Shown here: positions 30,325 to 49,793 of the stretch, one piece after another
Numbering within the stretch: the stretch's first letter is position 1
Layout of the letters: every line of letters starts with the position of its first letter
Source: Chitinophaga terrae (ex Kim and Jung 2007)
Lineage (GTDB): Bacteria; Bacteroidota; Bacteroidia; Chitinophagales; Chitinophagaceae
Reading direction: 5' to 3'
DNA: 64,000 bases
NCBI RefSeq assembly: GCF_900107795.1
Contig: NZ_FNRL01000012.1
Coordinates: 124,001-188,000 of the forward strand
The notes under the pieces: generated by a model
Database searches by the model: none
Seen by the model: only the letters and a program-made list of their open reading frames with translations
What the model was told of the DNA's origin: nothing
Program-made: the position numbers and the translations under genes

Positions 30325-30345
30325 TGTTCATACTTTAATATGTAA

Positions 30346-31362
30346 TTAAAATTTGCCTTCTCTCTCCTGGAAGTGCGTATCTTTCGAGATAGTTTTGCCG
30401 CCTTCTTCCATCCATGCGGCGGTTAAACGGATCATTTGCAGCAACGGCACTTTCGGATAACCGAACAGGCGGAAGCTCTCTGCTGCATTGCTCAGCAAGG
30501 CGGTAGACTGTTCTTCTCCCACAAAGCGGGGTTGCTTACCGAATATCTTCCCGAATTCGGATGCGATCCATCTCACGGAGGCGGTTTCAGGACCTGTAAT
30601 GTTTAAGAACTTAGCCGGCGCACTGGCATGCAGCAAACTGCGGATGGCATACTCGTTTGCATCGCCCTGCCAGATCACGTTCACATGGCCCATACGCAGA
30701 TCCAGCTCCCTTTCTTCCCTTACTGCTTTTGCTATTTCCAGCAATACGCCGTAACGCAGATCATTCGCATAGTTTAAGCGATAAATGAGGACCGGCGTCT
30801 GGTATTGATTGCTGAAGTGCTGGAACATTCTTTCCCTTCCCAGGCAGGACTGGCCGTATTCGCCAACCGGCGAAGGCGCTACGCTTTCATCTGCTCCGCC
30901 TGCAAACACCGGCGTTAACGGGTATACGTTGCCGGTAGAATAAACAACAATACGGGAGTTCTTATACTTCTCAGCTACACGGCCCGGAAGATAAGCGTTC
31001 ATCGCCCAGGTGAAAGCTTCTTTCCCAGTAGTACCGAATTTGGTACCTGCCAGGTACAATACATTCTTTACATCAGGCAAAGACTGCAAATCGGCGTCGT
31101 TCAACAGGTCGGCGGCAATGGTTTCTACTCCATTGCTTTCCAGTTCTTCTTTCAGCCCTGGTTCTGTTAACCTGGATACGCCTATCACGCGTTTCTTCAG
31201 GCCCGCGCGATCTATCGCCTGTTTTAATAATTTAGCAAGGCTGGGACCCACTTTACCCCCAATGCCCAGGATCAGAAAATCCCCGTCCAGTTTAGTTACA
31301 TCAGCAATCAATGCCTCAGAAGGTTGCAGCAGGCTGTCAACCAATTGTTCCAGTTGCGTCAT
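30346..31362 (-). CDS. NAD-dependent epimerase/dehydratase-like protein
   Basis: A 338-residue extended-SDR protein with a Rossmann motif (LILGIGGKVGPSLAKLL, about 30-46), NVLYLAGTKFGTTGKEAFTWA-like text, and VVYSTGNVYPLTPV (about 139-152). The usual catalytic YxxxK reads YGQSC (about 168-172), so the Lys is Cys. The NAD site looks intact, but the catalytic mechanism may differ from classic epimerases. It lies 21 bp upstream of the DHDPS-like gene and 120 bp after the Gfo/Idh/MocA gene, the largest gap inside the operon. The substrate is unknown. Confidence 0.85.
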   Translation of the reverse strand: MTQLEQLVDSLLQPSEALIADVTKLDGDFLILGIGGKVGPSLAKLLKQAIDRAGLKKRVIGVSRLTEPGLKEELESNGVETIAADLLNDADLQSLPDVKNVLYLAGTKFGTTGKEAFTWAMNAYLPGRVAEKYKNSRIVVYSTGNVYPLTPVFAGGADESVAPSPVGEYGQSCLGRERMFQHFSNQYQTPVLIYRLNYANDLRYGVLLEIAKAVREERELDLRMGHVNVIWQGDANEYAIRSLLHASAPAKFLNITGPETASVRWIASEFGKIFGKQPRFVGEEQSTALLSNAAESFRLFGYPKVPLLQMIRLTAAWMEEGGKTISKDTHFQEREGKF

Positions 31363-31482
31363 ATTGAGTTTATTTACAAGTATCTGTTAACTACTGTTTG
31401 CCGCCTGCGATCACGGTACGATACAACGATATCATCATCCTTTCCAACGCCGGCCTGGTCTTTTTACCAGTGAACAAAATGA

Positions 31483-32520
31483 TTATTTCAGTTGCTTATG
31501 CGCCCGTTTATAGATCTCAGACAGCTTTACCGTTGCCCCGTTCCTTCGTTTGCTTTCTTCTGCGGCTTCCATGAATGCCAGTATCTCCAGCGTTTCCTCC
31601 GGCCGGACCGGCGACTCGCCTGTTCTAAAAAAGGCTGCTATCTGTTGCAGCAACGGTTCATATCCTTTGAAAGGGCCCAACACCATATTCCCTTTTTCGC
31701 CGAATACCCTCCCGCCAAAATCATCAGGCCCCTTGCGCGTTCCCCTGAACGTGCCTATTCTTTCGCCGGCCCAGCGGCCTACTACTACATCCGCATCCGG
31801 GCTGAAGAAGCGGGTTACCGACTGGCAGCCAACGCCCATTACGGTAAACAGTGTTTCTACTCCGTGTATCCCATACCAGAAAAGATCAGGATGTGTTTTT
31901 TCCAGCGCGGCCGGACTGAAGGTATCGGCGCCCAATACAGCGCCTATTACCTGCTCTTTTGCCACTTTCTGCGCACTTTCCATGAAACGCAGCGAGGAGG
32001 CGGAAAAAACAGGGGTATTATATTTCTTTGCAGCCTCAAAAATGCGCATCCCATCTGCCAATGAAGCTGCCAAAGGTTTGTCTATAAATATCTTTTTGCC
32101 TGCTTTTAAAACCGGTAAGGTCTGGGCCAGGTGCGGTCTTCCATCATTGGATTCCAGCAATACCACATCAACTTTCGCCAATAACGCATCAATGCTGTCT
32201 ACTATCTCCACGCCCATATTTCTTACCTGTTCGGTGAAACCTGGCAGGCGTTGCTGGTTCAGGGCAATGTCGGGACTGGCCTGCGGAAATGCGGCCACTA
32301 CTTTCATACCTTCCAGCCCCGCAACCGGCGTGGCGCTGTTAAATGCTTTTGTAAATGCAATGGCATGGGTTGTATCCAAACCAATGATGCCGATCTTAAT
32401 AACCATATCGGATACACGTTTTTCTGCGGCATACAGCGGGCGCAGACCGGACATTACGCCCATTCCTATACCGGCCAGCGCTGAATTACGGATAAATTTA
32501 CGTCGCTTAAGATCTGTCAT
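31483..32520 (-). CDS. Gfo/Idh/MocA family oxidoreductase with Tat-type leader
   Basis: The 345-residue protein starts with a twin-arginine leader (KRRKFIRNSALAGIGMG, residues 5-21), suggesting folded export to the periplasm. It continues with an NAD(P)-binding fold (IKIGIIGLDTTHAIAFTKAF) and the family Lys in KKIFIDKPLAAS. The dinucleotide loop is GLDTTH rather than the classic GxGxxG. Family members oxidise or epimerise sugars and cyclitols. The gene is 17 bp downstream of a second, leaderless member. Exported forms often keep a tightly bound cofactor; that is inferred here, not seen. Confidence 0.88.
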   Translation of the reverse strand: MTDLKRRKFIRNSALAGIGMGVMSGLRPLYAAEKRVSDMVIKIGIIGLDTTHAIAFTKAFNSATPVAGLEGMKVVAAFPQASPDIALNQQRLPGFTEQVRNMGVEIVDSIDALLAKVDVVLLESNDGRPHLAQTLPVLKAGKKIFIDKPLAASLADGMRIFEAAKKYNTPVFSASSLRFMESAQKVAKEQVIGAVLGADTFSPAALEKTHPDLFWYGIHGVETLFTVMGVGCQSVTRFFSPDADVVVGRWAGERIGTFRGTRKGPDDFGGRVFGEKGNMVLGPFKGYEPLLQQIAAFFRTGESPVRPEETLEILAFMEAAEESKRRNGATVKLSEIYKRAHKQLK

Positions 32521-32537
32521 AGCTTCCTGGTTTTAGT

Positions 32538-33818
32538 TCACCTGCCAGCCTTTTCACGGGCCTGCGTGGTGGTATAATATTTTGCCAGCATAGCGCTAAT
32601 TTCCCAGGCCGGCATTTCTCCAGCCTGTACATATTGAAGGAACCGCTTCATTACCCTGGCAAATAATTGCTCGTGTACTTCTATCAGTGCCGCTGGTACT
32701 ATTACCTCCCATTTATCTCCTGCTTCCCGCAGGGCGACGCCGGGGTATTGTTTATTCAGCAGCGCAAACTGTTCGTGCAATATTTTCGTGTATGCGGCGC
32801 TGTTCTCTACTGGTTGTATGTAAAGTGTTGGCCGGTATTGTTGTTCTTTATCCTGCAGGACCAGGAGGGCAGCCTTGCTGCCTTTGAGCAGGGAGTAGTG
32901 CGTATCGCCTCCGCCTTCCGGCGCTTCATAATCCCATTGTACAGTGATCCTGGCATGCAGGCCCCGAATGTTATAATCAAAAGACCCGTTCGCGTAAACC
33001 GGCAGCAAACCATCTTTTCCTACCACCGACTGCAAAGCAGCGTTGTACTCCGTTTCGCCTGTTATCGCGGCATATTGTGTTTTATTCAGCATCGTAGGCC
33101 AGGCCCGGGCGCTGTTGATGGAAATATCTTTCAAATAATCAAGCTCCTGTTCCGGGAAGCAGGTCCATTGCACCAGGTCTACCAGGTGAGTGGTTACATC
33201 TGTGATCCCTTCTCCCTGTTCTCTTGTATCCATGTACCAGGCGGGTCTTACCAGCGGTTTGCCTGCTACTGTTTTTTTGAAGTGATGTATACTTTTTTTG
33301 ATCACAGCCGGGTTGCCTGGTTCGCCTTTTTCCGGTGTTCCAAAAATTGCAGGGATCTGCGATAAGGCTTTCTGCAACACGTTATGAATTTCATAACGTT
33401 CTGTCATGATATCATAAAGCTGTGTATGATTAGCCGCCGCTGTTGCGAATGCCGCCTTCAGCGAATCAAAACCTGCCGCATCAATAGCCATAGGCTTATC
33501 TGCCAATACGTGCATTCCTGCCCTTGTTGCCGCCTGGATATAAGCAGGCTTCAACCGGTTGTTTCCTGCCAGTATCACGATACTTCCCCGTTCGCATTGC
33601 AACATGCGCTGCAGGTAACCGGGCCCGGTGTATACATCCGTTGCCCAGTAAACTTTCGGGCTATCCTTCTGGTTATAATTAGCTACCTGTTGGAGATATT
33701 GTTCGACCTCTTTTCCTGCCGGCGCAAATACTTTGATGGTAGTATCCACACCCGGGTATTGTTCCTGTTGTACTAATGAAGCATGGAAATGTCCCGGGTC
33801 TAAAGCTATCAACTGCAT
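32538..33818 (-). CDS. Gfo/Idh/MocA-like oxidoreductase with C-terminal oxidoreductase domain
   Basis: From the ATG at 33818 (MQLIALDPGHFHASLVQQEQ) the protein is 426 residues; an ATG at 33845 would add nine. ALDPGHFHA replaces the usual GxGxxG at the nucleotide fold, and MHVLADKPMAID carries the family Lys-Pro pair. The C-terminal half matches the putative oxidoreductase domain often seen in Bacteroidetes sugar loci (GITDVTTHLVDLVQWTCFPEQ, LHARITVQWDYEAPEGGGDTH). It is cytoplasmic. The gap to the upstream PQQ-type gene is 58-85 bp. The substrate is unknown. Confidence 0.85.
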   Translation of the reverse strand: MQLIALDPGHFHASLVQQEQYPGVDTTIKVFAPAGKEVEQYLQQVANYNQKDSPKVYWATDVYTGPGYLQRMLQCERGSIVILAGNNRLKPAYIQAATRAGMHVLADKPMAIDAAGFDSLKAAFATAAANHTQLYDIMTERYEIHNVLQKALSQIPAIFGTPEKGEPGNPAVIKKSIHHFKKTVAGKPLVRPAWYMDTREQGEGITDVTTHLVDLVQWTCFPEQELDYLKDISINSARAWPTMLNKTQYAAITGETEYNAALQSVVGKDGLLPVYANGSFDYNIRGLHARITVQWDYEAPEGGGDTHYSLLKGSKAALLVLQDKEQQYRPTLYIQPVENSAAYTKILHEQFALLNKQYPGVALREAGDKWEVIVPAALIEVHEQLFARVMKRFLQYVQAGEMPAWEISAMLAKYYTTTQAREKAGR

Positions 33819-33903
33819 AGATGATTTTTTAGTGAATGGGAACATGACAGTATTGTCATCGCTATTCCATTAAAGATAAAATTTTGCCTCATCAGTACTC
33901 CCT

Positions 33904-35433
33904 TTATTTTGATGAACGTAAACGGGATATTGCAGCAACAGGAACGCTATCTGCACGGTTGTTCCAACTGCCACGGATATACGTTAATAAAGCTGCTATT
34001 TCATCATCCTTCAGGAATGCGAACGCGGGCATTTGTTCGCCCGGGTTAGCGCCGGTCTTGCCATTCAGCACTGTTCTGATCAATGCGGCAGCCGGACCAT
34101 TTACCACGGCGCTTTGATCAAGCGACGGGAAAGATCCCGGCACTCCTTTACCATCCGGTTTATGGCAGGATTCACAATAGTTTTTATAAAGAGATTGTCC
34201 CTTGCTGATGCCAGCAGCCTGCGGAGCCGCCGCTTTCAGTATCTCTGCCGTTGCGGGTATCTTCGTTCCCCGCTGAAGCGCAGACAAACGGATGATCCTG
34301 TCGTCGTGCGGTAACGGGAAACCTTTACCCGGATTCCAGTCGCGGTTGCTGGTGGCAATATAGATATCGCCGTTCGGGGCAACGCAGATATCGCGCAGGC
34401 GACCGAATTTACCGGCGAAATATATTTCTTCTTTCAGGATACTGTCCTGTGCTTCGTTCAGGGAGAGCACCCGCAAACTTGCCGCTTTCAGTGTTCCCAG
34501 CAATATGCTGTTATGCCATTCAGGGATCTGCCTGCTGCCGTAATAATCTACTCCTGCGGGCGCTATTGTTGGCGTCCAGGAGCGCATTGGCGCAGTGAAT
34601 GCAAAGGAGTCTGCATGGGCTTTTTCAGCCGGCAGATCTGCCGGTCCTTCAATAAAAGGCCAGCCGTAATAATGCCTGCGTTGTATGTAGTTCACTTCAT
34701 CTTCAATGGCATCTCCATGCTCGCTGGCAAACAGGTGTCCTTTATCTGAAAATACCAGTCCCTGGATATTGCGATGGCCGGAAGACCAAACAGGACTGTT
34801 CCTGTAGGGATTATCTGCCGGTATGCTGCCATCGAAATTGAAGCGCAGGGTTTTGCCGTTGATGCTGGCGGTATCGGGAGCATTCAAGCCATTGGCGGCG
34901 TCGCCGGTCGACAGGAAAACTTTACCGTCGGGCGCTATAGCTACCCTTGAACCGTTATGGCCAGTGTTGCCCGGCAGTTCGATAAGGGTGAACGGATCTT
35001 TCAGCGTATCTGCCGTATAGGTATATCTTACCAGGCGGGAAACGATTGAAGAATCAGCGTTCATATGTGTGTAATCAACGAATACATAGGGTTGTTCCGG
35101 ATCTTTGGATACGGCCATTCCCAGAAGACCAAGGCTACGTTGCCGGTATACTTCCGGGATAGCGATCAATTGTTTCTTTATCCCTGTTTTCGGATCTACT
35201 TTACTGACGGTACCACTTTGCTCGGTGAACCAGATCTGGTCGTCCGGCCCCCAGGCGATCTCCCATGGCACGTTAAGATCGGAAATAAGAGTAGAGACGC
35301 CTACCCGGGTAGAATCCAGTTCCAACACCGCCTCGACGGGCAGTTCACGTTGTTGCGCCGCCGGTTTGCATTGCATATTAACGCCGGCAAACATCATCAA
35401 CATTAAACATGATCCTATGATCTCCTTTTTCAT
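33904..35433 (-). CDS. PQQ-dependent sugar dehydrogenase fused to cytochrome c (lipoprotein)
   Basis: This 509-residue protein has a lipoprotein signal (lipid Cys in FAGVNMQC), a six-bladed soluble glucose/sorbosone dehydrogenase-type propeller (about 45-390; LNVPWEIAWGPDDQIWFTEQ, NTGHNGSRVAIAPDGK, HRNIQGLVF) and a C-terminal cytochrome c domain with heme site CESCH (about 418-422) and axial Met in EQMPAFAF. The layout predicts periplasmic oxidation of a sugar or polyol with electrons passed to heme. It is 17 bp downstream of the Nramp-like gene and belongs to the operon. Confidence 0.9.
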   Translation of the reverse strand: MKKEIIGSCLMLMMFAGVNMQCKPAAQQRELPVEAVLELDSTRVGVSTLISDLNVPWEIAWGPDDQIWFTEQSGTVSKVDPKTGIKKQLIAIPEVYRQRSLGLLGMAVSKDPEQPYVFVDYTHMNADSSIVSRLVRYTYTADTLKDPFTLIELPGNTGHNGSRVAIAPDGKVFLSTGDAANGLNAPDTASINGKTLRFNFDGSIPADNPYRNSPVWSSGHRNIQGLVFSDKGHLFASEHGDAIEDEVNYIQRRHYYGWPFIEGPADLPAEKAHADSFAFTAPMRSWTPTIAPAGVDYYGSRQIPEWHNSILLGTLKAASLRVLSLNEAQDSILKEEIYFAGKFGRLRDICVAPNGDIYIATSNRDWNPGKGFPLPHDDRIIRLSALQRGTKIPATAEILKAAAPQAAGISKGQSLYKNYCESCHKPDGKGVPGSFPSLDQSAVVNGPAAALIRTVLNGKTGANPGEQMPAFAFLKDDEIAALLTYIRGSWNNRADSVPVAAISRLRSSK

Positions 35434-35450
35434 GATTACAGGTATATTGA

Positions 35451-36668
35451 CTAAAAGAATAAAGTAACAGCGCTATTGACAGCCAATCCCAGCATCAGCA
35501 ATAATCCCAGTACTGCAGCTATATTGGCGAACAGCCCGTTCTTCATCGGTCCCATTATCTTTTCGTCGTTGGCTACCAGGAACAGGGCAATGCCTATGAA
35601 CGGAACAATGAAGATGGTCACAGCCTGCGCCAATACGATCAGCTGCAAAGGCAATTTGCCGAACGTGATAGCAACAGTGGCTCCTATCAGCATAATAACG
35701 GCAATGAATACACGTACCATGCCGGAGCTCAGGTGGCCGCCAAACCCTAATGCATCGCCCAGCAGGGTACCGCCTAAGGAAGCGTTGCCAAGGAGCGACG
35801 AGAAAGAAGCGCCGAACAAACCAACCAGGAAAAGGCCTGCAGCCGCGTTGCCGAAAACAGGCTCCAATGCTTTTGCCATATCCGTAGCCGTAGTGATCTT
35901 AATACCGGCAGGATGCAAGACCATTGCTGCGCAGATCATTACTGTAGCGCTCATGAAGCCCAGGATCAGCATGCCGGGGATAGATTCTTTACCCGTTAGT
36001 TTGGCATCAGGGTTGATCCGTTTTCTCTCCTGCACCAGGTACGACTGGTAGATGGCGCCAACGATGGAGAAACAGGAAGCGGTGAAAGCAATGATAAGAC
36101 CCATGGAGCCTTTGGGAACCCCAGGAACAAATCCGCCAGCGATGTCGCCTACCGAAGGTTTAGACATCACCATGGTTATGATAAAAGCAAAGAGCATCAT
36201 AATAATGAGGGTGATCATTATCTTCTCCAGTATCTTATAAAAACCCCGCACCAGGAGAATCCCGATCCCTAAAAGGTTGCAGACAATGATCCATATCACT
36301 TTAGGCGTATGCGTAGCCTCGGCCAGCGTGATACCGGCGCCTATCGAGTTGCCCGCCTGGAAGGATGCTGTTACCAGGAACACGCCTACCCCGATAGCAA
36401 TACGGGCAATATTCCCGTATTTATGGCTAATAGTGGTGAGCAGCGACTGGTTAGTGGCAATACCTACCCTGGCAGCCATGGTTGTAAATATGATCATGAA
36501 AAAGATGGCCACTACCACCAGCCAGAGTAAGGAGAACCCGTAATCTGCTCCCATGATGGAAGCGATAGTTACCTTACTCGGACCAAATACCAGTGCGGCG
36601 GTAATGAGCCCGGGACCCAGGGCATGCAGCCAGGCTAATGATCTGCTTTTTTTTGCGTTTGTTGACAT
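35451..36668 (-). CDS. Nramp-fold transporter lacking the metal-binding motifs
   Basis: A 405-residue membrane protein with about 11 hydrophobic helices and clear Nramp similarity (LGPGLITAALVFGPSK, YGFSLLWLVV, YQSYLVQER). In TM1 the canonical DPGN is GPSK (29-32) and in TM6 MPHN is SIVG (201-204), so the Asp, Asn and Met that bind divalent metal are all absent. Metal transport is therefore doubtful. Its place between a sodium symporter and a PQQ dehydrogenase in a catabolic operon suggests an organic or other solute. 13 bp separate it from the symporter gene. Confidence 0.85.
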   Translation of the reverse strand: MSTNAKKSRSLAWLHALGPGLITAALVFGPSKVTIASIMGADYGFSLLWLVVVAIFFMIIFTTMAARVGIATNQSLLTTISHKYGNIARIAIGVGVFLVTASFQAGNSIGAGITLAEATHTPKVIWIIVCNLLGIGILLVRGFYKILEKIMITLIIMMLFAFIITMVMSKPSVGDIAGGFVPGVPKGSMGLIIAFTASCFSIVGAIYQSYLVQERKRINPDAKLTGKESIPGMLILGFMSATVMICAAMVLHPAGIKITTATDMAKALEPVFGNAAAGLFLVGLFGASFSSLLGNASLGGTLLGDALGFGGHLSSGMVRVFIAVIMLIGATVAITFGKLPLQLIVLAQAVTIFIVPFIGIALFLVANDEKIMGPMKNGLFANIAAVLGLLLMLGLAVNSAVTLFF

Positions 36669-36681
36669 AGCGGTTGATATC

Positions 36682-38253
36682 TTAAGCGAAACGGATATAG
36701 AAAAACAGTACGATTGCAGTGATCAGCGCCCACCAGATAGTAGGATTGCGCCATCCCTGCTGCAAAGCCTTTTCGCCGGGCGGTAACGAAAGACTGGACC
36801 TGTTCCAGATCAACCCTTTCAATTCTGCTTCCGGCTTAGGTTTTGTTACTAAGCTGACCAGCACACAAAGTACAATGCAGCTCCAGAATACGATGCCCGT
36901 CCTGTTGAAGAAAGGCATAGCCGGGTACATTATTTCCATGGCGATAGACAGCGGGATGGTAAGAATACCGGCGGCCAGCGCACCTGCATGCGTGGTACGC
37001 TTCCATAAAATACCGAGTAAGAACATAGCGGCAATACCGGGCGTAAATAACCCGTATGCGTTCATGAGGTAAAGGAATACCGGCTTTTTAGATTGTGTAA
37101 GGAATAAACCTGTGCAAAGGATGCCTATCATGATGATCACGGCCCCGGCTATACGCCCGAACCTTACAGCTTCTTTTTCAGTGGCCTGCTTACGGAAATA
37201 CGGCAGGTAAACATCTACTGTGAGTATAGTAGTGCAGGAGTTAATGGCGCCCGAGAGGTGCGACATCACCGCTGCGATCAGTCCTGCCATCACCAGCCCT
37301 ACCAGGCCCGAAGGGAGCAATTTCTCTACCAGCGTAGGAAACAGCAGATCCGGTTTCTCCAGGTTCGGGAACAATTTAGGTGCAACGAGGGCGGGAACGG
37401 TGATAATGATAGGAACCAGGAATTTCAGGTAATCGCCAAATACTACTCCCATCCGGGCATGCCACTCATTTTTAGAGGCCATTACCCGTTGTACGATAAA
37501 CTGGTTGGTAGCGCAATAAAAAACGCTGATACAGAGTACGCCGCCCAGGTACATGGTCCAGGGAAAATCGGGATCATTGGCCGGGAGAATAAGATCCCAA
37601 TCCTTCATGGTATCCGTAATGGCAGATACCCCGCCGGCCGCATGCACGGTAGCAATGGTAAGCGCAATGCCTCCCATTACCAGTACGCCCAACTGCAGCA
37701 TCTCCGTCCATATTACCGCTCTCAGACCTCCGGCAATCGTGTAAACACCGGTAATGAGGGCCAGGATAACGACACTGGACATTACGGAAATGCCCAGCAG
37801 AGAGTGCAACGACAAGGCGCCCAGGTATAGTACGGCGCTGATCTCTACGAGGATATAAGTTAACAGGATCAGACCTGCGTAAGTAGTTCTTGCAGCGGCG
37901 CCGAACCTCCGTTCAAGAAATTCGGGCACTGTATAAAACCCGTTGCGGATATAAAACGGAAGGAATATCCATAACAGGGCGTTGAAGCCCATAAGAATGG
38001 CGCCCCATTCCATAGCTATGGCAACAAATCCGCGGCTGTAGGCAACGCCCATAGCACCTACCAGGTGATGACTGCTGATATTGGCGGCAATGATGCTGCC
38101 TCCTATCATCCACCAGGGTAATTTGTCGCCCGCCAGGAAATAATCTCTTTTGGTTTGCTGCCCTTTGCGGGAAGCATACAAACCCAGTGCAATTACACCC
38201 AGGATGTAGATCCCAAAAATGGCAGCGTCTAAAGCAGTTAGGTTCAAATTCAT
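36682..38253 (-). CDS. Sodium:solute symporter (SSS/SGLT family)
   Basis: The 523-residue protein has roughly 14 membrane helices with family patterns DYFLAGDKLPWWMIGGSIIA (about 36-55), PEFLERRFG (about 111-119) and a cluster around SHLSGAINSCTTILTVDVY (about 330-348). It should import the periplasmic product of the SusCD step across the inner membrane with sodium; the solute is not predictable. The start overlaps the stop of the ceramidase-like gene by 4 bp (ATGA), a sign of coupled translation. Confidence 0.92.
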   Translation of the reverse strand: MNLNLTALDAAIFGIYILGVIALGLYASRKGQQTKRDYFLAGDKLPWWMIGGSIIAANISSHHLVGAMGVAYSRGFVAIAMEWGAILMGFNALLWIFLPFYIRNGFYTVPEFLERRFGAAARTTYAGLILLTYILVEISAVLYLGALSLHSLLGISVMSSVVILALITGVYTIAGGLRAVIWTEMLQLGVLVMGGIALTIATVHAAGGVSAITDTMKDWDLILPANDPDFPWTMYLGGVLCISVFYCATNQFIVQRVMASKNEWHARMGVVFGDYLKFLVPIIITVPALVAPKLFPNLEKPDLLFPTLVEKLLPSGLVGLVMAGLIAAVMSHLSGAINSCTTILTVDVYLPYFRKQATEKEAVRFGRIAGAVIIMIGILCTGLFLTQSKKPVFLYLMNAYGLFTPGIAAMFLLGILWKRTTHAGALAAGILTIPLSIAMEIMYPAMPFFNRTGIVFWSCIVLCVLVSLVTKPKPEAELKGLIWNRSSLSLPPGEKALQQGWRNPTIWWALITAIVLFFYIRFA

Positions 38254-39638
38254 TTCGACAGGATCATTCGTTGGGAAATTGCTGTAGCTGCGGCTGTCAG
38301 CAGTTCAAGAGAACCAGGCGCAAACGGCGTTTGCCATACTGCATAACTCTGGTCGTGGTACGAGGCTGCCGGCGGCAGGTAGCCTGCATACCCGTTCACA
38401 ATATTAATTACCGCTACAGCAGCAGGAGCCAGTGCAGCCCTTAGCTGTTGCTGGAAAGCGGCATAGGCTTCATTGGGTTGTCCTACGAGGATAGCGTCTC
38501 CCAGTTGCCATACCCATAAAGGCATGTTTGAAGTATCGCCATCCCCAACGGTTTTGCGGATACCCCGCTGGCGCCATAAACGTTCTTTTACCACGTGGTC
38601 TTCGCAGGCTTCCCAGGCGGCTTCTATGGCCGCCAGGGAAGGGAGATCTTTTAATGGAAGAGATACGGGTTGCATTTCCGCCTGCTTTACAGCCGAAGGA
38701 CTGAAACCTGTTTTATTCCACATTGCCAGCGTGGCCCCCGATTCTACCACGCCGGTAAATTCCAGGGCTGTAGCAGGAGATTGCATTGCTTCCAGCGCTG
38801 CCAGGGTTGCATACCCTAACTGGCGACCATATTGATCTGCCAGGGAAGTATCCCCGCTGTATTGTTCTGCGGGCGCCAGTTCGCCGGAGGCTCCCTGGAG
38901 GAATAAACACGGCGCATGGGTAGCGCCTTCCACCACTTCTCTCAACGCCCCGATGTAATCGGGCGAGATCAGTTGGTTGTCGGCTCCCAACGTGGTTGGA
39001 TGACAGGCATAGTTGACCACAACGCCTATCACCGCGCCTTCTTCATTTGTTACCCTTCCCACGAGCAGCGTATCATCTGCCTGTTTTGTTGAATTAAGAC
39101 CTGTGAGTATCCTTGCTGTTTCCTTCTCCGGCAGCTCCCTGTTCTTAGCCAGGTCGCATTTACTGTAATGCCAGGAGAGGGTTGCTGTACGGGCATTTGC
39201 GAGTGCGTTTTTGCAGGCGGAGATAGCCGCCTGCTTCACCTTTTCCAGGTAAGGGGCAATGAAGTGCCCGCCTGGTTTGCCCGCATCTTCAGTGAAGGTA
39301 CTGGGCCCTGCATGCGTATGCGTGAGGCAGAACATCAACTGATCAGGATGTATAGACAATGCTTCCAGGATGCCTTCCCTCAGGTTGCGCTCATCGGCAG
39401 CGCTTTTCCACCAGCCAAGATCGGCGGAGATAAGGAAAAGCGGCGTATCGTTGGCTGCTGATTGAAAAGAGAAACAGGTCAGCGTCAGCGGGCGGTGTAT
39501 GCCTGCCGATACTTCATGTTTGGCAGCGCCCCAGTTGCGGGCGTAGATCCCTACCGGAGGGGTAATGTCTTCTCTCCCTGTTCCTATCCATCCACGGAAT
39601 GAAGGATCTTTAAACGGCGTATACATTTGCTGCTCCAT
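38250..39638 (-). CDS. Neutral ceramidase-like hydrolase (N-terminal domain only, cytoplasmic)
   Basis: Using the ATG at 39638 (MEQQMYTPFKDPSFRGWIGTG) the protein is 462 residues. It shows the neutral/alkaline ceramidase N-terminal domain: GREDITPPVGIYARNWG, the metal/catalytic block THTHAGPST (about 104-112) and VVVNYACHPTTLG. True ceramidases are secreted and have an extra C-terminal beta domain; here there is no signal peptide and little follows. The operon context suggests hydrolysis of an amide in a small acylated intermediate rather than ceramide (inference). The extended frame to 39722 runs into the SDR gene and is not used. Confidence 0.85.
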   Translation of the reverse strand: MEQQMYTPFKDPSFRGWIGTGREDITPPVGIYARNWGAAKHEVSAGIHRPLTLTCFSFQSAANDTPLFLISADLGWWKSAADERNLREGILEALSIHPDQLMFCLTHTHAGPSTFTEDAGKPGGHFIAPYLEKVKQAAISACKNALANARTATLSWHYSKCDLAKNRELPEKETARILTGLNSTKQADDTLLVGRVTNEEGAVIGVVVNYACHPTTLGADNQLISPDYIGALREVVEGATHAPCLFLQGASGELAPAEQYSGDTSLADQYGRQLGYATLAALEAMQSPATALEFTGVVESGATLAMWNKTGFSPSAVKQAEMQPVSLPLKDLPSLAAIEAAWEACEDHVVKERLWRQRGIRKTVGDGDTSNMPLWVWQLGDAILVGQPNEAYAAFQQQLRAALAPAAVAVINIVNGYAGYLPPAASYHDQSYAVWQTPFAPGSLELLTAAATAISQRMILSK

Positions 39639-39649
39639 GGTTATTTTTT

Positions 39650-40417
39650 CTATCTCACAAGTGAAAGACCACCATCCATTAGCAGGATGCTGCCTGTAAT
39701 ATGTTTGTTGCCCGGATCGCACAGGCGTACTACCTGCGCGGCTATTTCCGCCGGCGTGATCAGCGCCTGTACAGGCACTTTCTTCCTGGCTTCCTCTTTC
39801 TGTTCAGGCGCCAGTTCCCAAACCCTGCGGCTCAGGCCTGCGTCCACATAGCCCGGCGCTATTTCGTTCACCATGATACCATGAGGCGCCAGTTCCAGCG
39901 CCATGCACTGGCAAAGCATGCGCATACCGGCTTTAGATACCGCGTATGCGGGGATGTGCGCATGTACCGCTTCGGCAGCCCAGCTGCCTACAAATACTAC
40001 GCTGCCCCATTGCTGCCGCTCTACCAGGCGACCGGTAACAGCTCTTGATACGTAAAAAGCGCCATCCAGGTTAATCCGTAATTCTTTCGACCACTGTTCG
40101 GGAGTGATCTTATATAAACCGGCAATGGTTACCGTGGCAGCATTGGCCACCGCGATATGTACAGTACCCAGGGCCTCAGTGGCAGCGGCAACCCAGGCGT
40201 CGACCGCCGCGGCATCCGAAACATCTACCTGCGTGTAATGACTGCGAACAGAGAAGCTGTTTAACTCGTCCAACAGAGGAACCGCCATTGCTGCCGGCTG
40301 CACATCCCCGATGGCTACATTCGCCCCCTCCTTTGCAAACGCAATAGCTATGGCGCTTCCGATATCACCCAGCCCTCCGCTGATCAGTACTGTTTTCTCT
40401 TCAAATAATTTCTTCAT
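39650..40417 (-). CDS. Short-chain dehydrogenase/reductase
   Basis: A 255-residue classical SDR with cofactor loop GGLGDIGSAIA (14-24), an Asp at the end of the second strand (IGDVQ) that suggests NAD preference, NAATV, catalytic Ser near 145 and Tyr158-Lys162 in AYAVSKAG, and the C-terminal ITGSILLMDGGLS. It would oxidise or reduce an alcohol group in the pathway. It is 19 bp downstream of the dehydratase gene and 11 bp upstream of the ceramidase-like gene. The exact substrate cannot be read from the sequence. Confidence 0.93.
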   Translation of the reverse strand: MKKLFEEKTVLISGGLGDIGSAIAIAFAKEGANVAIGDVQPAAMAVPLLDELNSFSVRSHYTQVDVSDAAAVDAWVAAATEALGTVHIAVANAATVTIAGLYKITPEQWSKELRINLDGAFYVSRAVTGRLVERQQWGSVVFVGSWAAEAVHAHIPAYAVSKAGMRMLCQCMALELAPHGIMVNEIAPGYVDAGLSRRVWELAPEQKEEARKKVPVQALITPAEIAAQVVRLCDPGNKHITGSILLMDGGLSLVR

Positions 40418-43301: not shown

Positions 43302-44756
43302 TCAATAACCGGTGTTCTGTTGTAAAACGCCCGGGTTATAGAGGTCTATCTGGCGTTTAGGAACAGGGAACAGGTTCATGTAGTCTTTAGGCGACAAGGT
43401 AGTGACCAATGGTTGGTTGGTAACGTTGTTGTACAAACGTTCTTCTTTTGTCATAACAGTGGTCATCCTGCCTGTACGCACCAGGTCCAGCCATCTTTCA
43501 TTTTCGTAGGCAAATTCCAGTTGTCTTTCCAGCAACAGCTTATCCAGGAAAGCATCTGCGGATGCAATATCCGCCGCCGTATAATCGTGGCTTGCATCGC
43601 CAAACGCTCTTTCACGCACTTTATTCAACTGGATCAGCGCATTACCTTTATCGCCTGCATTGTATAATGTTTCAGCATACAGGAGCACCACGTCTGCATA
43701 CCGGAGTACCGGGATATCTAACCCCGATGTTCCTATCAGGTGTTTTACCGCGTATTTTGAAACGTATGGGTAAAAGATAGGGGTACCGCCGGTTGCAGGA
43801 ACATACATATCTGAAATAGTAGACGCTTTGCGTTTATCGCCTGCCTCGTATCGTTTATTCAGGCTCCAGGAAGGCAATGCCACTTCGTTACCCCTGTCTA
43901 CAAGCCCATAGATACCTCCATTTGGCGTATAAGCAGTGGAAAGCGTCTGCCCGTTGGAGCTTTCAACATATTTCATTGTAAAGATCACTTCATTGTTATC
44001 TTCAGTGGCCAGGCTCCAGAGCGTTGAGAAATTAGGCTCAAGGATAAAACTGAATTCGCTGTTGATCCTTTCGAAACAGGTTTTCGCATTTGGCCAGTCT
44101 TTACGGTATACATATACTTTACCCAGCATCCCCAAGGCGGCGGCTTTGGAAGCCCTGCCCTTTGCAATGGTTTTCGGAAGTTTCTCTACCGCATCTTTCA
44201 GGTCGGAAATGATCAAAGCATAGATATCATCAGCGCTGGACCTGGCCATGGTTTTAGCTTCAGCGATCGACAGGGATGTCGTCACTTTAGGCACTCCGCC
44301 AAACAGGCGTACCAGGTCGAAGTAAAAACATGCCCGCATAAACTCTGCTTCCCCGGTGTACTGGTCTTTCATATTGGCCGGGTAATCCGTAGGCACGTTG
44401 ATATTTTCCAGGATGGCGTTGGCCCTGCCAATACCCGTGTAAGTAGCTTCCCAAAAGTCGGCTACGATATTGTTATCCTGGTTCACTGCCAGGGCATCCA
44501 TTTCCGAGCCCCCTGCTACCGCGGTATTATTACCCAGGTAAAGGTTATCGGACGGCAGTTCCATGATGAGGTAATCTGTCTGCTTGCGTTGCTGCAACGC
44601 GTTGTATACGCCCAGCACCGCCAGGTTCATATCATTGGCAGTTTTATAGTAGTTCCCTGTGGTCAGGGTATCTTCAGGTTTCAGATTGAGCAGTTTGTCT
44701 GTACAACTGGCCGCACCAAACAAAAGTAACATCGAAGCAATGATTGTCTTTTTCAT
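43302..44756 (-). CDS. SusD/RagB-family lipoprotein of the long catabolic operon
   Basis: The 484-residue protein has a lipoprotein signal ending at Cys in LLFGAASC, then DKLLNLKPEDTLT, EAEFMRACFYFDLVRLFGGVP (about 128-148), a TPR-like core and VLRYADVVLLYAETLYN followed by LNKVRERAF. The end, GVLQQNTGY, is usual for SusD. It lies 18 bp downstream of its SusC partner. Together they should capture and import the operon's substrate at the outer membrane. Confidence 0.95.
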   Translation of the reverse strand: MKKTIIASMLLLFGAASCTDKLLNLKPEDTLTTGNYYKTANDMNLAVLGVYNALQQRKQTDYLIMELPSDNLYLGNNTAVAGGSEMDALAVNQDNNIVADFWEATYTGIGRANAILENINVPTDYPANMKDQYTGEAEFMRACFYFDLVRLFGGVPKVTTSLSIAEAKTMARSSADDIYALIISDLKDAVEKLPKTIAKGRASKAAALGMLGKVYVYRKDWPNAKTCFERINSEFSFILEPNFSTLWSLATEDNNEVIFTMKYVESSNGQTLSTAYTPNGGIYGLVDRGNEVALPSWSLNKRYEAGDKRKASTISDMYVPATGGTPIFYPYVSKYAVKHLIGTSGLDIPVLRYADVVLLYAETLYNAGDKGNALIQLNKVRERAFGDASHDYTAADIASADAFLDKLLLERQLEFAYENERWLDLVRTGRMTTVMTKEERLYNNVTNQPLVTTLSPKDYMNLFPVPKRQIDLYNPGVLQQNTGY

Positions 44757-44774: not shown

Positions 44775-47700
44775 TTAAAAATTAAAGTTGAAGCCCAGTG
44801 CATAAGAACGGTTCAGTGGTTCAGAGCCTGTGTTATAGCCTGGCTTGCTGTTCACTCCCCCGATCTCTCCATTCGTATAACCTTCAGGGTTATAACCGTG
44901 GAAGCCTTTTTTGGTGAGGATAAGGGCATTGCTTACAGAGAAGTAAACGCGGCAGGAGTTCATGCGCAACTTGCTGGTAAAGGATTCAGGTATCGTGTAG
45001 CCGAAGTTGATGTTGCGGAGAGCGAGGAACGAAGCATCTTCTACCAGCACATCAGTTGCTCCCCAGGAAGCGATGTTGTTTAAAGAGATAGCAGGTGTTT
45101 TACCGTTGCCGGGGCTGGCTTCGGACCACCACTGGTTTTCGACCAGCGAACGTCTCATGGCTCCCAACAGGGTGCCTGAGTAATATTCATTTTCGAAGTT
45201 GTAGATCCTGGCGCCAACAGAAGCCTGCATAGCGATGCTCAGATCGAAGCTTTTCCAGGAGAAATTGTTCACCATTCCAAATATTGCCTTAGGCTGGAAA
45301 TTGCCTAAGATCATTTTATCGTCTGAATTGATCGTCTTGTTGCCGTCGCGGTCGAATATGATAGGCTGACCAGGTTTGGTATTGCCTAAAGCAGGCGTAT
45401 TGGCGATCTGGTTAGCATTCTGGAATACGCCGGTAGTTTTGTAACCATAGTAAGAGAACATGGGCTCTCCTACCCTGAGGATCCACGACATGCCGAACTG
45501 GTCTGTCACTATCCTTTCCTTCACATCGCCCAGGTCTTCTACCTTGTTCACGTTCTTAGAGAAGTTGAAGGAGGTTGACCAGTTGAATTTACCTACCAGG
45601 TTGCGGGTAGTTAATTCCAGCTCAATACCCTTGTTGCTCACAGAACCGATGTTAGACAAACCGGTAGTGAAGCCGGTGGTGATAGGAACGGAAACTTCGT
45701 ATAACAGGTCTTTGGTTTTCTTGCTGTAGTAATCGAAGTTCAAATTGATGCGGTTATCCAATACGCCGAGTTCGAAGCCCAGGTCGATACCCGCGGTTTT
45801 TTCCCAGGTCAGATCGGGGTTTCCGTAGTTGCCCTGCGCCTGGCCTTTAACGGTAGAATTGTTGGGAGAATACAGCGCATCTTTCATTTTGCCGAGATAG
45901 GCAAAGTCGCCGATGTTGAAGTTGCCCGTTACACCGTAGCTGGCGCGGAGTTTCAGGTCGCTGATAGCCCTGATATCCTGCATGAATTCTTCCTGTTTCA
46001 CTCTCCATGCCAATGAAGCGGATGGGAAATATCCCCATTTGGAATTCGGACCAAACCTGGAGCTGCCGTCTGTCCTAATGGAAGCGGAAACCAGGTATTT
46101 ATCTTTGTAGGCATAGTTTACGCGGCTGAAGTAGGAAACCAGTCCCCAGCTCGATTTGGTGAAAGTGCTGGCAGCTGCGTTTATAGTAGCGTTGCTTAAT
46201 GTATGAATGATATCATTATTGAAAGAACCGGTTACGGCATAGATGCCGGAAGCCTCTCCCCAGTTGCGTTGGAGCGACATGCCTGCAATAGCGGCGAGAT
46301 CATGGCCTCCGCGGAAGGTAGTATTGTAGCTTAGAACGTTTTCGTTGATCACATTGATAGTGGAAGACTTGCGCTGGCTGCCTGTAGAGCCGGCAGCATT
46401 GCCCCAGGAAGTCTGGTAGTTATCAATAGTATTGTAAGCAATGTTTGTTCCTACAGAAGATCTTAAGCTCAAACCTTTGGCCAGGTTCAGTTTCAGGTAC
46501 ATATCGCTGATGTTGGCAAAAGTAGAGCTGAAATTTTCTGTACCGTCGAGCGTGGCAAGCGGGTTTAACTGCCCGCTGACAACGGCGCCCCAGTAGTCCC
46601 GTGCTTTAGGATAGGAACCGTCTGCACGGCGGGTTTGCACGAAGCTTGGGTATTTGGAGAAGTTGGCAATGTCGACAGACGGAGAGCGAAGTTTAGAATA
46701 AGATGGAGTGAGCATGAATCCCAGTTCCACTACTTTGCTGGCTTTTACGTCTACGTTGGCGCGGAGACCATAGGTTTTAAACCAGGTATTGCGCAGGGTT
46801 CCTTTTTCATCTTTATAGGTACCTGCTACGTAGTAAGTAACTTTATCGGTACCTCCGCTGGCAGACAGGTTATAGCTTTGAATAGGGGCGGTAGACAACA
46901 CGGCATCCTGCCAGATCACGGGATTGGGAGAAATGATGGTATCATTCACCTGGTAGCTGGCGGGTCTTCTCGGATCGCCCCATACGGGGATGGTCGGATC
47001 GCCGCCGGCCCAGGTATATTCCCTGTTCTGGAATTTCACTGCATAATCATAATATTCCTGTCCGGTGATCCAGTCGTTATGTACGATGGCTTTAGACAAG
47101 CCTGCATAGCCATTGAAGTTGAACTTTGTTTTGCCTGCCACGCCTTTTTTCATGGTCACCATAATTACGCCGCCGGCGGCGCGGGAGCCATAGATGGCAG
47201 CGCTGGAAGCGTCTTTCAGCACTTCGATGGATTGAACGTCGTTCATATTGATGTTGCCGAGGTTGCCGCCGGGTACGCCGTCGATCACTACCAGCGGTTC
47301 GTTGCCGGCGCTGATAGAGCCGGCGCCGCGGATGCGGATATTGGGAGCCTGGCCCGGCTGGCTTCTCGCCTGGGAAATGTTCACCCCTGCCAGGCGGCCT
47401 ACCAATGCGGCTTCCGGCCGGCCGGCCGGCATCTGGTCGAGGTTTGTATTTTCTACTTTTGCGACAGCAGCAGTAACAGACGATTTTTTAACGGTACCGT
47501 AACCAATTACTACTGTTTCGTTCAAGGTTGTTTTTGATGGTTGAAGGGAGATATAGATGTGTTTACCGTTCCCGGCAGCCTGTTCGGCTTTGTCGTAACC
47601 GATGAAGGAGAAAACCAGTATATCCGTTGCCGTTGCACGGATTGAGAACTGGCCTTTGGCGTCGGTAGCTGCGCCTGTTTTGCTTCCTTTGATCATGACA

Positions 47701-47849
47701 GTTACACCGGGGATCGGCGACTGCGTTTGTGCGTCCAGTACAGTACCCTTGATTTCCTGCGCCTCCTGTGCAAACAGGTGAAACGGCCTGCAGAGCATGA
47801 TGGCAAATGAGAACAGCCATACGAAAAGGTAGAGGTTCTTGCCTTTCAT
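44775..47849 (-). CDS. SusC/RagA-family TonB-dependent transporter of the long catabolic operon
   Basis: A 1024-residue protein: signal peptide (MKGKNLYLFVWLFSFAIMLC and following), carboxypeptidase-like domain (IKGTVLDAQTQSPIPGVTVM), SusC signature VVIGYGTVKKSSVTAA (about 116-131), plug (RIRGAGSISAGNEPLVVIDG; IEVLKDASSAAIYGSRAAGG) and a barrel ending SYALGFNFNF. It is the first gene after the regulator in a run of fifteen same-strand genes. A TGTTTACA octamer lies 78 bp upstream of its start and a pair of such octamers lies around the predicted promoter. Confidence 0.95.
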   Translation of the reverse strand: MKGKNLYLFVWLFSFAIMLCRPFHLFAQEAQEIKGTVLDAQTQSPIPGVTVMIKGSKTGAATDAKGQFSIRATATDILVFSFIGYDKAEQAAGNGKHIYISLQPSKTTLNETVVIGYGTVKKSSVTAAVAKVENTNLDQMPAGRPEAALVGRLAGVNISQARSQPGQAPNIRIRGAGSISAGNEPLVVIDGVPGGNLGNINMNDVQSIEVLKDASSAAIYGSRAAGGVIMVTMKKGVAGKTKFNFNGYAGLSKAIVHNDWITGQEYYDYAVKFQNREYTWAGGDPTIPVWGDPRRPASYQVNDTIISPNPVIWQDAVLSTAPIQSYNLSASGGTDKVTYYVAGTYKDEKGTLRNTWFKTYGLRANVDVKASKVVELGFMLTPSYSKLRSPSVDIANFSKYPSFVQTRRADGSYPKARDYWGAVVSGQLNPLATLDGTENFSSTFANISDMYLKLNLAKGLSLRSSVGTNIAYNTIDNYQTSWGNAAGSTGSQRKSSTINVINENVLSYNTTFRGGHDLAAIAGMSLQRNWGEASGIYAVTGSFNNDIIHTLSNATINAAASTFTKSSWGLVSYFSRVNYAYKDKYLVSASIRTDGSSRFGPNSKWGYFPSASLAWRVKQEEFMQDIRAISDLKLRASYGVTGNFNIGDFAYLGKMKDALYSPNNSTVKGQAQGNYGNPDLTWEKTAGIDLGFELGVLDNRINLNFDYYSKKTKDLLYEVSVPITTGFTTGLSNIGSVSNKGIELELTTRNLVGKFNWSTSFNFSKNVNKVEDLGDVKERIVTDQFGMSWILRVGEPMFSYYGYKTTGVFQNANQIANTPALGNTKPGQPIIFDRDGNKTINSDDKMILGNFQPKAIFGMVNNFSWKSFDLSIAMQASVGARIYNFENEYYSGTLLGAMRRSLVENQWWSEASPGNGKTPAISLNNIASWGATDVLVEDASFLALRNINFGYTIPESFTSKLRMNSCRVYFSVSNALILTKKGFHGYNPEGYTNGEIGGVNSKPGYNTGSEPLNRSYALGFNFNF

Positions 47850-47926
47850 AATACGTTGGTTAGATAAAATGTTTAGATAAGTTTTTCCACGTGTACAGAT
47901 ACACTAAAAAAGGCGTACCCGTAATT

Positions 47927-47934
47927 TGTTTACA
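47927..47934. promoter_or_regulatory. Single TGTTTACA octamer upstream of susC
   Basis: An isolated TGTTTACA in the leader, 78 bp before the susC ATG. It is identical to the left octamer of the pair at 48128-48158. Binding by the GntR/FCD regulator is inferred. Confidence 0.4.
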
Positions 47935-48127
47935 TTTTCACTTTTTATGGAGGGCAAATCAATGGGCAAAAACCTGGTACTGACGGGCATAGGTATTCAA
48001 TTCAATTGCAGGTTACAACTGTCAAATACCCGTGTTCACCGGAAGTAAAACAAATCTGAAAAGTCAGCAAGGTTATGATAACCGCTTACAGGCTAAACTT
48101 CATTTACCAGGTGCGCGCTGATCATTA

Positions 48128-48158
48128 TGTTTACAAATATAATGTTGTTTTGTAAACA
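48128..48158. promoter_or_regulatory. Paired operator: TGTTTACA - 15 bp - TGTAAACA
   Basis: Two octamers in inverted orientation with centres 23 bp apart. The inner side continues the symmetry (AAA/TTT). The left one overlaps a -7 box at 48134-48141. The GT-N2-AC core fits operator types known for the FadR branch of GntR regulators. Confidence 0.55.
48134..48141 (-). promoter_or_regulatory. Candidate -7 element of the catabolic operon
   Basis: CAAATATA on plus, TATATTTG on minus, an exact TAnnTTTG match that overlaps an octamer. A TTTG word lies upstream at a spacing of 15 nt, shorter than usual. Confidence 0.4.
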
Positions 48159-48223
48159 AAAAAATATTTTTCAGGAAAACATGAAGAAATTATTAAGTCA
48201 GTGTGCGGGCAGATAAAAAGGGG

Positions 48224-48859
48224 TTAATCGATTTCCAGAGTAGTAAGTTCTCCTCTTACCAAATGCTTGATCAGGGCTTCTTCAGCCATTCTGAGGTCTC
48301 TTGCTTTCAGGGCGTTAACGATCTGGCGGTGTTCTTCATCTGTCTGTTCATAATCATCCATCTGCAGCATTTTACCCAGTTTCATATGGAAAAGGGGGAT
48401 ATTGCTGAACTGGTACAGTTCCATCAGTTTAGGGTTAACGGCGCTGGCAACCAGGGTTTCATGGAACTTGACGTCTGCTTCGCAGGCGCCGCCCAGGTAC
48501 CCGTTCTTCACCATATTGCTGAAATCCTCGCAGATCCGCTCCAGGGCACTGATATGCTCGTCGGTACAATGCTGGATGGCCAGCCGGATCGCTCCCAGTT
48601 CCAGCAGCTCCCTTAACTGGCGGATCTGTTTGATATCTTCGGCATTCATCGTCTTGACAAAATACCCGCCTTTTTCCCCGAACACTACCAGGTTTTCGCC
48701 CAGCAACCGGGTAAGCGCTTCCCGCACGGCCATGCGGCTTACTTCCATTTTTTTGGCCCATACATCTTCCTTCAGGCGCATCCCCGGCACCAGTTGATTA
48801 GCAAGGATCTTACGGCGCAGTTCTACGTACACTTTATTGGCTAAGGAGTCTGTCTTCAT
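48224..48859 (-). CDS. GntR family regulator with FCD domain
   Basis: The 211-residue protein has a GntR winged helix (about 5-72; VYVELRRKILANQLVPGMRL, EVSRMAVREALTRLLGENLV) and an all-helical FCD ligand domain with likely metal ligands in DVKFHETLV (about 129-137) and DEEHRQIV (about 173-180). FCD regulators usually sense organic acids such as gluconate, glucuronate or related keto acids, which suits the enzymes downstream. It is transcribed toward the susC operon. An octamer pair at its own promoter suggests autoregulation. Confidence 0.93.
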   Translation of the reverse strand: MKTDSLANKVYVELRRKILANQLVPGMRLKEDVWAKKMEVSRMAVREALTRLLGENLVVFGEKGGYFVKTMNAEDIKQIRQLRELLELGAIRLAIQHCTDEHISALERICEDFSNMVKNGYLGGACEADVKFHETLVASAVNPKLMELYQFSNIPLFHMKLGKMLQMDDYEQTDEEHRQIVNALKARDLRMAEEALIKHLVRGELTTLEID

Positions 48860-48868
48860 AGTTAATTA

Positions 48869-48899
48869 TGTAAACGAAATTTTTTGGCAAAAGTAAACA
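48869..48899. promoter_or_regulatory. Paired operator at the GntR gene promoter
   Basis: TGTAAACG (48869-48876) and AGTAAACA (48892-48899) are direct near-copies with centres 23 bp apart, the same distance as at 48128-48158. The second overlaps the -7 box at 48888-48895. Confidence 0.5.
48888..48895 (-). promoter_or_regulatory. -7 promoter element of the GntR regulator gene
   Basis: CAAAAGTA on plus is TACTTTTG on minus, an exact TAnnTTTG match 28 bp before the ATG at 48859. Confidence 0.55.
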
Positions 48900-49770: not shown

Positions 49771-49793
49771 CCCACAGTCTAACTTTTAATTGT

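Follow-up and report, generated by a model that had tools for sequence, protein, structure and literature searches.

Two promoters in a 64,000-nt stretch of Chitinophaga terrae DNA (the window, to which coordinates given without a contig or locus label refer) each carry a pair of GTWWAC boxes with centres exactly 23 bp apart. One pair lies in front of gntR, a gene for a GntR/FCD protein (48224-48859), and the other in front of a susC operon. These pairs are very probably the operators of the GntR/FCD protein, as judged by comparative sequence analysis; two dimers would bind at a fixed distance and repress a regulon for an acidic, presumably heparin-like polysaccharide. A preliminary description had already taken the pairs for operators of the adjacent regulator, and this is the reading best supported by motif conservation. 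The regulator is of a known kind, its strictly spaced double operator is unusual, and its regulon would be wider than the window.

Paired boxes at the gntR and susC promoters

The features of the locus are as follows; promoter positions are relative to the predicted transcription starts.

48892..48899, unstranded: upstream box of the gntR promoter, AGTAAACA, at about -16 to -9, overlapping the -7 element
48888..48895, minus strand: gntR -7 element, TACTTTTG, with the predicted start near 48883
48869..48876, unstranded: downstream box of the gntR promoter, TGTAAACG, in the predicted 5′ leader at about +8 to +15
48224..48859, minus strand: gntR, 211 aa, with a GntR winged helix (PF00392) and an FCD domain (PF07729) by profile matches
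48151..48158, unstranded: upstream box of the susC promoter, TGTAAACA, at about -29 to -22
48134..48141, minus strand: -7 element of the susC operon, TATATTTG, with the predicted start near 48129
48128..48135, unstranded: downstream box of the susC promoter, TGTTTACA, at about -6 to +2, overlapping the -7 element
47927..47934, unstranded: single unpaired octamer, TGTTTACA, 78 bp upstream of susC
44775..47849, minus strand: susC, SusC/RagA outer-membrane receptor
43302..44756, minus strand: susD
41612-42928, minus strand: class-III aminotransferase, found beside gntR homologues in other genera
40437-41615, minus strand: galactonate-dehydratase-like enzyme, found beside gntR homologues in other genera
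39650-40417, minus strand: SDR, found beside gntR homologues in other genera
28071..39722, minus strand: rest of the gene row, namely ceramidase-like, sodium symporter, Nramp-like, sugar dehydrogenase, oxidoreductases, epimerase-like, DHDPS-like and M20 peptidase (Nramp-like and epimerase-like named by eye from the translation, DHDPS-like from a weak nanA match)

Subsets of the 28071..39722 row adjoin gntR homologues elsewhere, and in the C. terrae genome the row presumably forms part of one transcript. The gntR product matches PF00392 with 50.1 bits (cut-off 27) and PF07729 with 89 bits (cut-off 24.3). It has the domain order of the FadR/FCD proteins of the GntR superfamily, an N-terminal winged helix, which begins at residue 7, and a C-terminal FCD domain. 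In 16 aligned sequences E31, R42, R46, D129, H133 and H177 are invariant and H199 is nearly so; we take D129, H133, H177 and H199 to be the FCD metal site. The boxes have the form of FadR/FCD operators, a palindrome with GT and AC 2-3 bp apart, and would be the sites that this protein uses.

The octamer TGTTTACA is found exactly at 47927-47934 and 48128-48135, and TGTAAACA exactly at 48151-48158, while the two gntR promoter boxes each match the octamer in 7 of 8 positions. The box pairs, at 48128-48158 and 48869-48899, are both spaced 23 bp from centre to centre. In each pair an exact minus-strand TAnnTTTG element overlaps one of the boxes (TATATTTG at 48141-48134 in the susC pair, TACTTTTG at 48895-48888 in the gntR pair). 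Both the spacing and the overlap are as first described.

The consensus of the box is TTGTWWACAA, with the core GT-N2-AC. In a set of 116 boxes from 58 distinct pairs, for which the letters GT, WW and AC were the search key, the flanks favour T before and A after the box. The centres, counted within WW, are AA/TT in 86 boxes, AT in 30 and TA in none; the absence of TA suits a read-out of the box centre by the protein. Since the centre is AA/TT or AT and never TA, labels such as inverted and direct are meaningless for box pairs. The preliminary description had called one pair inverted and the other direct, a difference that disappears on inspection: GT-N2-AC is palindromic, and the centres TT, AA and AT interchange, also at corresponding places in relatives. 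Its suggestion of two helical turns, with dimers side by side on one DNA face, likewise needs adjusting; with 10.5 bp to the turn, 23 bp make about 2.2 turns, and the dimers would be rotated by about 70 degrees and lie only roughly on one face.

For a flavobacterium, TAnnTTTG has been placed at -12 to -5 (PMC9723704). By this rule the starts of gntR and susC, both on the minus strand, are predicted near 48883 and 48129, and the predicted susC leader, from the start to the susC ATG, is about 280 nt long (47850-48129). An RNA switch in this leader was considered and set aside, as 47000-49300 matches no Rfam family at the gathering score. The register of the boxes to the promoter shifts by 13 bp between gntR and susC, with identical box spacing. 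The promoters of SusC2, lyase and oxidoreductase genes elsewhere in the same genome (described below) share the susC register, with the final G of TAnnTTTG doubling as the G of the downstream box. Of the 58 distinct pairs, only 32 have TAnnTT[TC]G over a box.

The window has two occurrences of GTWWAC-N17-GTWWAC where 0.03 would be expected by chance, and none of 100 shuffles gives two. The octamer TGTWWACA alone occurs 9 times (3.27 expected), 6 of them away from this locus; being common by itself, it leaves the signal to be carried by the spacing. A simple ORF mask leaves 4,235 predicted non-coding bases in the window, with 12 GTWWAC boxes; 5 belong to this locus, and the remaining 7 all fall short of the full octamer.

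Two additional boxes near susC were considered. The copy at 47927, noted in the preliminary description, has the exact sequence; it is unpaired and weakly conserved: of the 20 orthologous loci, 5, counting that of the window, have a copy at a comparable position. It lies 201 bp from 48128, to be compared with the 190 bp between the sites of Atu1419 (see below), and a looping role is possible; as a looping site proper it was not retained, given the few loci with a copy. A degenerate third box at 48175-48180, 23 bp upstream of the susC pair, was also discarded, as the orthologous position in G003, the one locus compared by eye, is not box-like.

Conservation in Chitinophaga and a second locus

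A set of 79 Chitinophaga genomes was used for comparison. A GntR match at E 1e-10 is present in 39 of these and a close orthologue (at least 73% identity) in 20. The preliminary description had proposed a motif scan of orthologous promoters, and the scan gave the predicted result. The gntR promoter pair has a spacing of 23 bp in 19 of the 20 close orthologues and of 22 bp in one (G059); its downstream box varies among species between GTTTAC and GTATAC, with the spacing constant. The pair downstream of gntR is found in all 20 orthologous loci, in 14 as an exact pair and in 6 with GTAGAC as the second box. G020 and G010, at 59% identity, show one box each. A pattern scan of the genus gave a match in 45 of 79 genomes, i.e., in 20/20 with a close gntR and in 25/59 without, the latter counted irrespective of whether the matches are coding.

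Behind the downstream pair, susC1 was found neither in the 17-kb region of G025 nor in L227, which has the same coordinates as G002; in G038 the sequence region ends too soon behind the pair for susC1 to be judged. The G025 locus (L099) keeps the pair, with GTAGAC as second box, about 1.6 kb before the aminotransferase gene, and susD1 as well as susC1 was not found downstream of gntR in the 17-kb region.

In gntR-bearing genomes the pattern scan showed AT-rich pairs also at another place, a SusC/SusD pair (SusC2/SusD2) that in many species is divergent from the gene of a heparinase-II-like lyase. As this second locus was first found by the motif, a protein-based search was used against circularity. 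SusC2 was thereby found in 21 of the 79 genomes, at 65% identity or more in 20. At least one 23-bp pair lies upstream of the unlinked SusC2 gene in 20/20; the number of pairs per promoter is one or two, and in G043 three, two of them sharing a box. In G008, which has a SusC2 of 51% identity and no gntR, no pair was found upstream of SusC2. The lyase is present at E 1e-100 in 21 of 79 genomes, in G065 only in pieces. The remaining 20 are the same 20 genomes that have SusC2, and 19 of these have a close gntR. Thus the distribution of the lyase among genomes almost equals that of gntR. G013 has gntR and neither SusC2 nor the lyase, and G073 has SusC2 with two pairs and no gntR match at E 1e-10.

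Several individual loci deserve mention. The G073 locus (L199), from an assembly of about 530 contigs, contains SusC2, SusD2, the lyase and two of the box pairs. Three boxes in consecutive 23-bp steps are present in the SusC2 promoter of G043 (L089, 9586-9637) and in the lyase promoter of G048 (L087, 8942-8993), the first box of the latter with one mismatch. G006 (L198) has an additional, more divergent gntR (58% identity) immediately next to a heparinase-II-like gene, and in G065 (L197) a gntR homologue (52%) adjoins such a gene, with lyase, SusC2 and SusD2 in pieces. In G048 an AT-rich 23-bp pair (L086 near 9201; G048:C5:95200) lies upstream of a gene for an FAD-linked oxidase with Fe-S domains, a possible extra regulon member in that species.

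Residues 187-897 of the G048 lyase align to heparinase II (2fuq) with E 1.3e-99. The catalytic His, Glu, Tyr and His of heparinase II are identical in this alignment; we take these to be H202, E205, Y257 and H406 of 2fuq, in a numbering subject to a chain offset. The score of 421.7 bits lies below the NCBIfam HepB equivalog cut-off of 600, and the protein is referred to here as heparinase-II-like.

In the C. terrae genome itself, pairs are found before SusC2 (C40:79596), the lyase gene (C44:420280, one mismatch) and an oxidoreductase gene (C44:114195); the lyase promoter reads GCTTAC-N17-GTTTAC over TATATTTG. The oxidoreductase was rejected as a core member of the regulon, a pair being present in 2 of 30 loci examined, out of 70 genomes that have the gene. 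Over the whole of this genome exact pair patterns show no excess over a reversed control (8 versus 12 rows, and 12 versus 19), and one-mismatch pairs give 24 rows versus 17. Of 12 loci with the N17 spacing, 5 are non-coding (four true pairs, and one with GTGAAC, which is no true box); with the N16 control (22 bp; 6 loci of 12 distinct sites) 0 of 6 are. The signal in this genome lies in which sites are non-coding and not in the total pair count. Beyond the known sites the one-mismatch scan gave the lyase promoter alone as a convincing match. Sixteen one-mismatch loci were inspected and discarded: 8 are non-coding by the simple ORF mask, and no recognisable regulon gene lies beside them as judged by the first residues of the neighbours only.

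The 23-bp spacing in other genera and how it may be read

A scan of named genomes was extended to relatives, of which the best 80 of 125 were analysed. These include Chitinophaga, Dyadobacter, Larkinella, Runella, Spirosoma, Pedobacter, Sphingobacterium, Olivibacter and others. An exact non-coding pair is found in 11/11 Chitinophaga loci, which are partly from genomes already in the genus count, and in 43/69 of the others; the remaining 26 of 69 show no exact non-coding 23-bp pair within the regions examined. In 72 loci (L228-L299, three of them Chitinophaga: L245, L248 and L250), the 111 pairs within 80 bp include 58 spaced by 23 bp, 11 by 22 bp and 6 by 21 bp. The 69 loci left without these three were searched on either side of gntR for spacings of 14-40, with coding DNA unmasked. 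In the 250 bp upstream, exact pairs are confined to two spacings, 23 bp in 12 loci and 22 bp in 10, and in the 500 bp downstream they stand at 23 bp in 26 loci and at 15, 24 and 38 bp in one locus each. In 64 of the 69 non-Chitinophaga loci the 250 bp before gntR contain one box or more. Many of these have a single box there, so one site may serve autoregulation in such loci.

The genes beside gntR are also conserved in part. In Pedobacter loci L249 and L270 the neighbours are the lyase, gntR, aminotransferase, galactonate-dehydratase-like, SDR, ceramidase-like, symporter, Nramp-like, epimerase-like and DHDPS-like genes, and the Pedobacter cluster of L276 adds SusC2 and SusD2; these three clusters have 4 to 5 pairs each. 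Among the best 80 loci the aminotransferase is found in 48, the dehydratase in 30 and the lyase in 11, within flanks that are short in some loci and with a scoring of other-genera neighbourhoods that covered query genes only. Other genera of the window's own family have parts of the same gene set beside gntR. From the Pedobacter clusters and these partial sets, the window operon and the SusC2/lyase locus probably each supply one half of a single pathway. On the other side of gntR, the window has divergent genes for gluconate 2-dehydrogenase subunit 3 and a GMC oxidoreductase (49222-51503), homologues of which lie beside gntR in 3 of the best 80 loci.

The spacing was also counted in loci picked by protein and not by motif. 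Among non-coding box pairs within 80 bp, the 23-bp spacing accounts for 21/29 in 20 gntR loci, 32/36 in 20 SusC2 loci, 16/20 in 20 lyase loci and 8/19 in 10 wider loci from other genera of the same family. The SusC2 and lyase loci partly overlap, and orthologous promoters are related, so that counts across loci are not independent. In the non-coding DNA of control loci no pairs were detected, with 1 box in 7 distant-FCD loci and 13 boxes in 28 oxidoreductase loci. A control motif of the same composition, CAWWTG, gave no 23-bp pair in a wider locus set that includes regions selected by the GTWWAC motif.

We propose that each box is bound by one dimer of the GntR/FCD protein, and that the two dimers, with centres 23 bp apart, bind cooperatively through contact or form a tetramer; the 23-bp distance would then itself be read as a feature of the operator. 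In the C. terrae genome four target promoters have the pair at about -29 to +2, over the -7 element, where a bound protein should keep RNA polymerase out. In the gntR promoter it lies 13 bp further downstream (about -16 to +15), and binding there would bring about autorepression. The repressor would be released by a breakdown product of the substrate, probably a sugar acid that occupies the FCD metal site. The regulon would consist of the susCD/catabolic operon of the window, the separate SusCD locus and the heparinase-II-like lyase gene; with this lyase included, the substrate is probably a uronate-containing polysaccharide. A broader version, which we advance tentatively, is that an FCD regulator family extending over Chitinophagales, Cytophagales and Sphingobacteriales has a built-in DNA ruler, such that two and at times three short palindromes in 23-bp steps form a single operator for a tetramer or for dimers added in a lengthening row.

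Alternatively, the boxes may be operators of this same regulator with the dimers binding independently, the 23 bp reflecting promoter geometry around one -7 element. The common register of the four target promoters is in keeping with this, as are the single box before gntR in many loci and the binding of Atu1419 to a single palindrome, reported in PMC7797058. However, the gntR and target registers differ by 13 bp and the spacing is still 23 bp; 26 of the 58 pairs keep the distance with no recognisable -7 element over a box; and the triple boxes of the G043 SusC2 and G048 lyase promoters (the latter with one mismatch) continue in the same steps. Independent binding is thus considered unlikely. 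It is more doubtful still that the pairs bind another regulator of the same genes, with gntR merely one of its targets. G073, with its SusC2 pairs and no detected gntR, would fit such a regulator, but the box is of the FadR-subfamily kind and lies close upstream of gntR in nearly all of the distant loci (the 64 of 69 above). That the octamers are a chance by-product of AT-rich base composition and the TTTG promoter element can practically be dismissed: the octamers elsewhere in the window and the lack of a genome-wide excess of exact pairs are what it would lead one to expect, but the shuffles, the CAWWTG control and a spacing peak that repeats at several promoters and in other orders stand against it, and the conservation data contradict it.

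The preferred reading, two dimers of the GntR/FCD protein on one spaced operator, provides an operator code that can be tested, and a regulon, for a group of regulators in environmental Bacteroidetes. Control of polysaccharide loci in Bacteroidetes is usually discussed through other regulator types. The catabolic operon of the window is here linked to a heparinase-II-like lyase encoded on another contig, a link pointing towards a uronate-containing polysaccharide, and the conserved 23 bp suggests that FCD proteins may measure a fixed DNA distance.

Comparison with known regulators

The comparisons below draw on the available parts of the cited papers. A literature search on PL21, GntR and polysaccharide utilization gave a match on a Verrucomicrobium. 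Searches for a link between Chitinophaga, GntR and heparinase, or between heparinase II and GntR in Bacteroidetes, found nothing, and in the available texts no FCD regulator with a fixed operator distance of this kind was found, the nearest ruler, BusR, being a non-FCD protein.

In the FadR subfamily GT-N2-AC is an accepted core class, and weaker half-sites occur 7-12 nt from the site centres (PMC4494728). Neither full palindromes at 23 bp nor, in the FadR set of its table, a Bacteroidetes protein were found in the available part of that paper. UxuR and other FadR-subfamily regulators are of the same GT-N2-AC spacing class (PMC4494728). By profile the gntR product is not a UxuR equivalog (31 bits versus a cut-off of 442), nor is it NanR (68.1 bits versus 260).

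AusR of Zobellia galactanivorans is an FCD protein. It is described in PMC8286568 as a GntR repressor of alginate genes, and by this description it is alike in being a GntR-family repressor of a uronate-polysaccharide locus in Bacteroidetes. NanR of E. coli, also an FCD protein, is a GntR-type repressor that binds as side-by-side cooperative dimers (PMC8012715). It differs in that its sites are three adjacent GGTATA repeats, compared with the GTWWAC palindromes here, and its cooperativity depends on a 32-residue N-terminal extension, whereas the winged helix of the gntR product already begins at residue 7.

In fixed distance the nearest system, by analogy, appears to be BusR, whose tetramer acts as a molecular ruler for two motifs at a fixed 22 bp (PMC8517857). 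These 22 bp are the gap between the motifs, whereas the 23 bp here are from centre to centre. BusR belongs to the GntR superfamily, has an RCK_C domain, senses c-di-AMP and regulates a betaine transporter; RCK_C is not found in the gntR product, which has FCD instead.

On sequence grounds, the closest match in box and one of the closer ones in protein is Atu1419 of Agrobacterium fabrum (FCD/VanR group, 6z74), which binds the 10-bp palindrome ATGTATACAT and contacts DNA through E34, R45 and R49 (PMC7797058). The gntR product matches 6z74 with E 1.1e-11, the third of three PDB matches at E 1e-10. The three contact residues align with E31, R42 and R46 of the gntR product, and T46 corresponds to M43. 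Both systems have an FCD domain, the GT-N2-AC core and two palindromes in one promoter region, and Atu1419 represses its own gene and catabolic genes, as the gntR product would do here. The sites of Atu1419 are 190 bp apart and are looped by a tetramer, compared with 23 bp here, and its targets are hydroxycinnamic-acid genes under a folate effector, in contrast to the polysaccharide regulon proposed for Chitinophaga.
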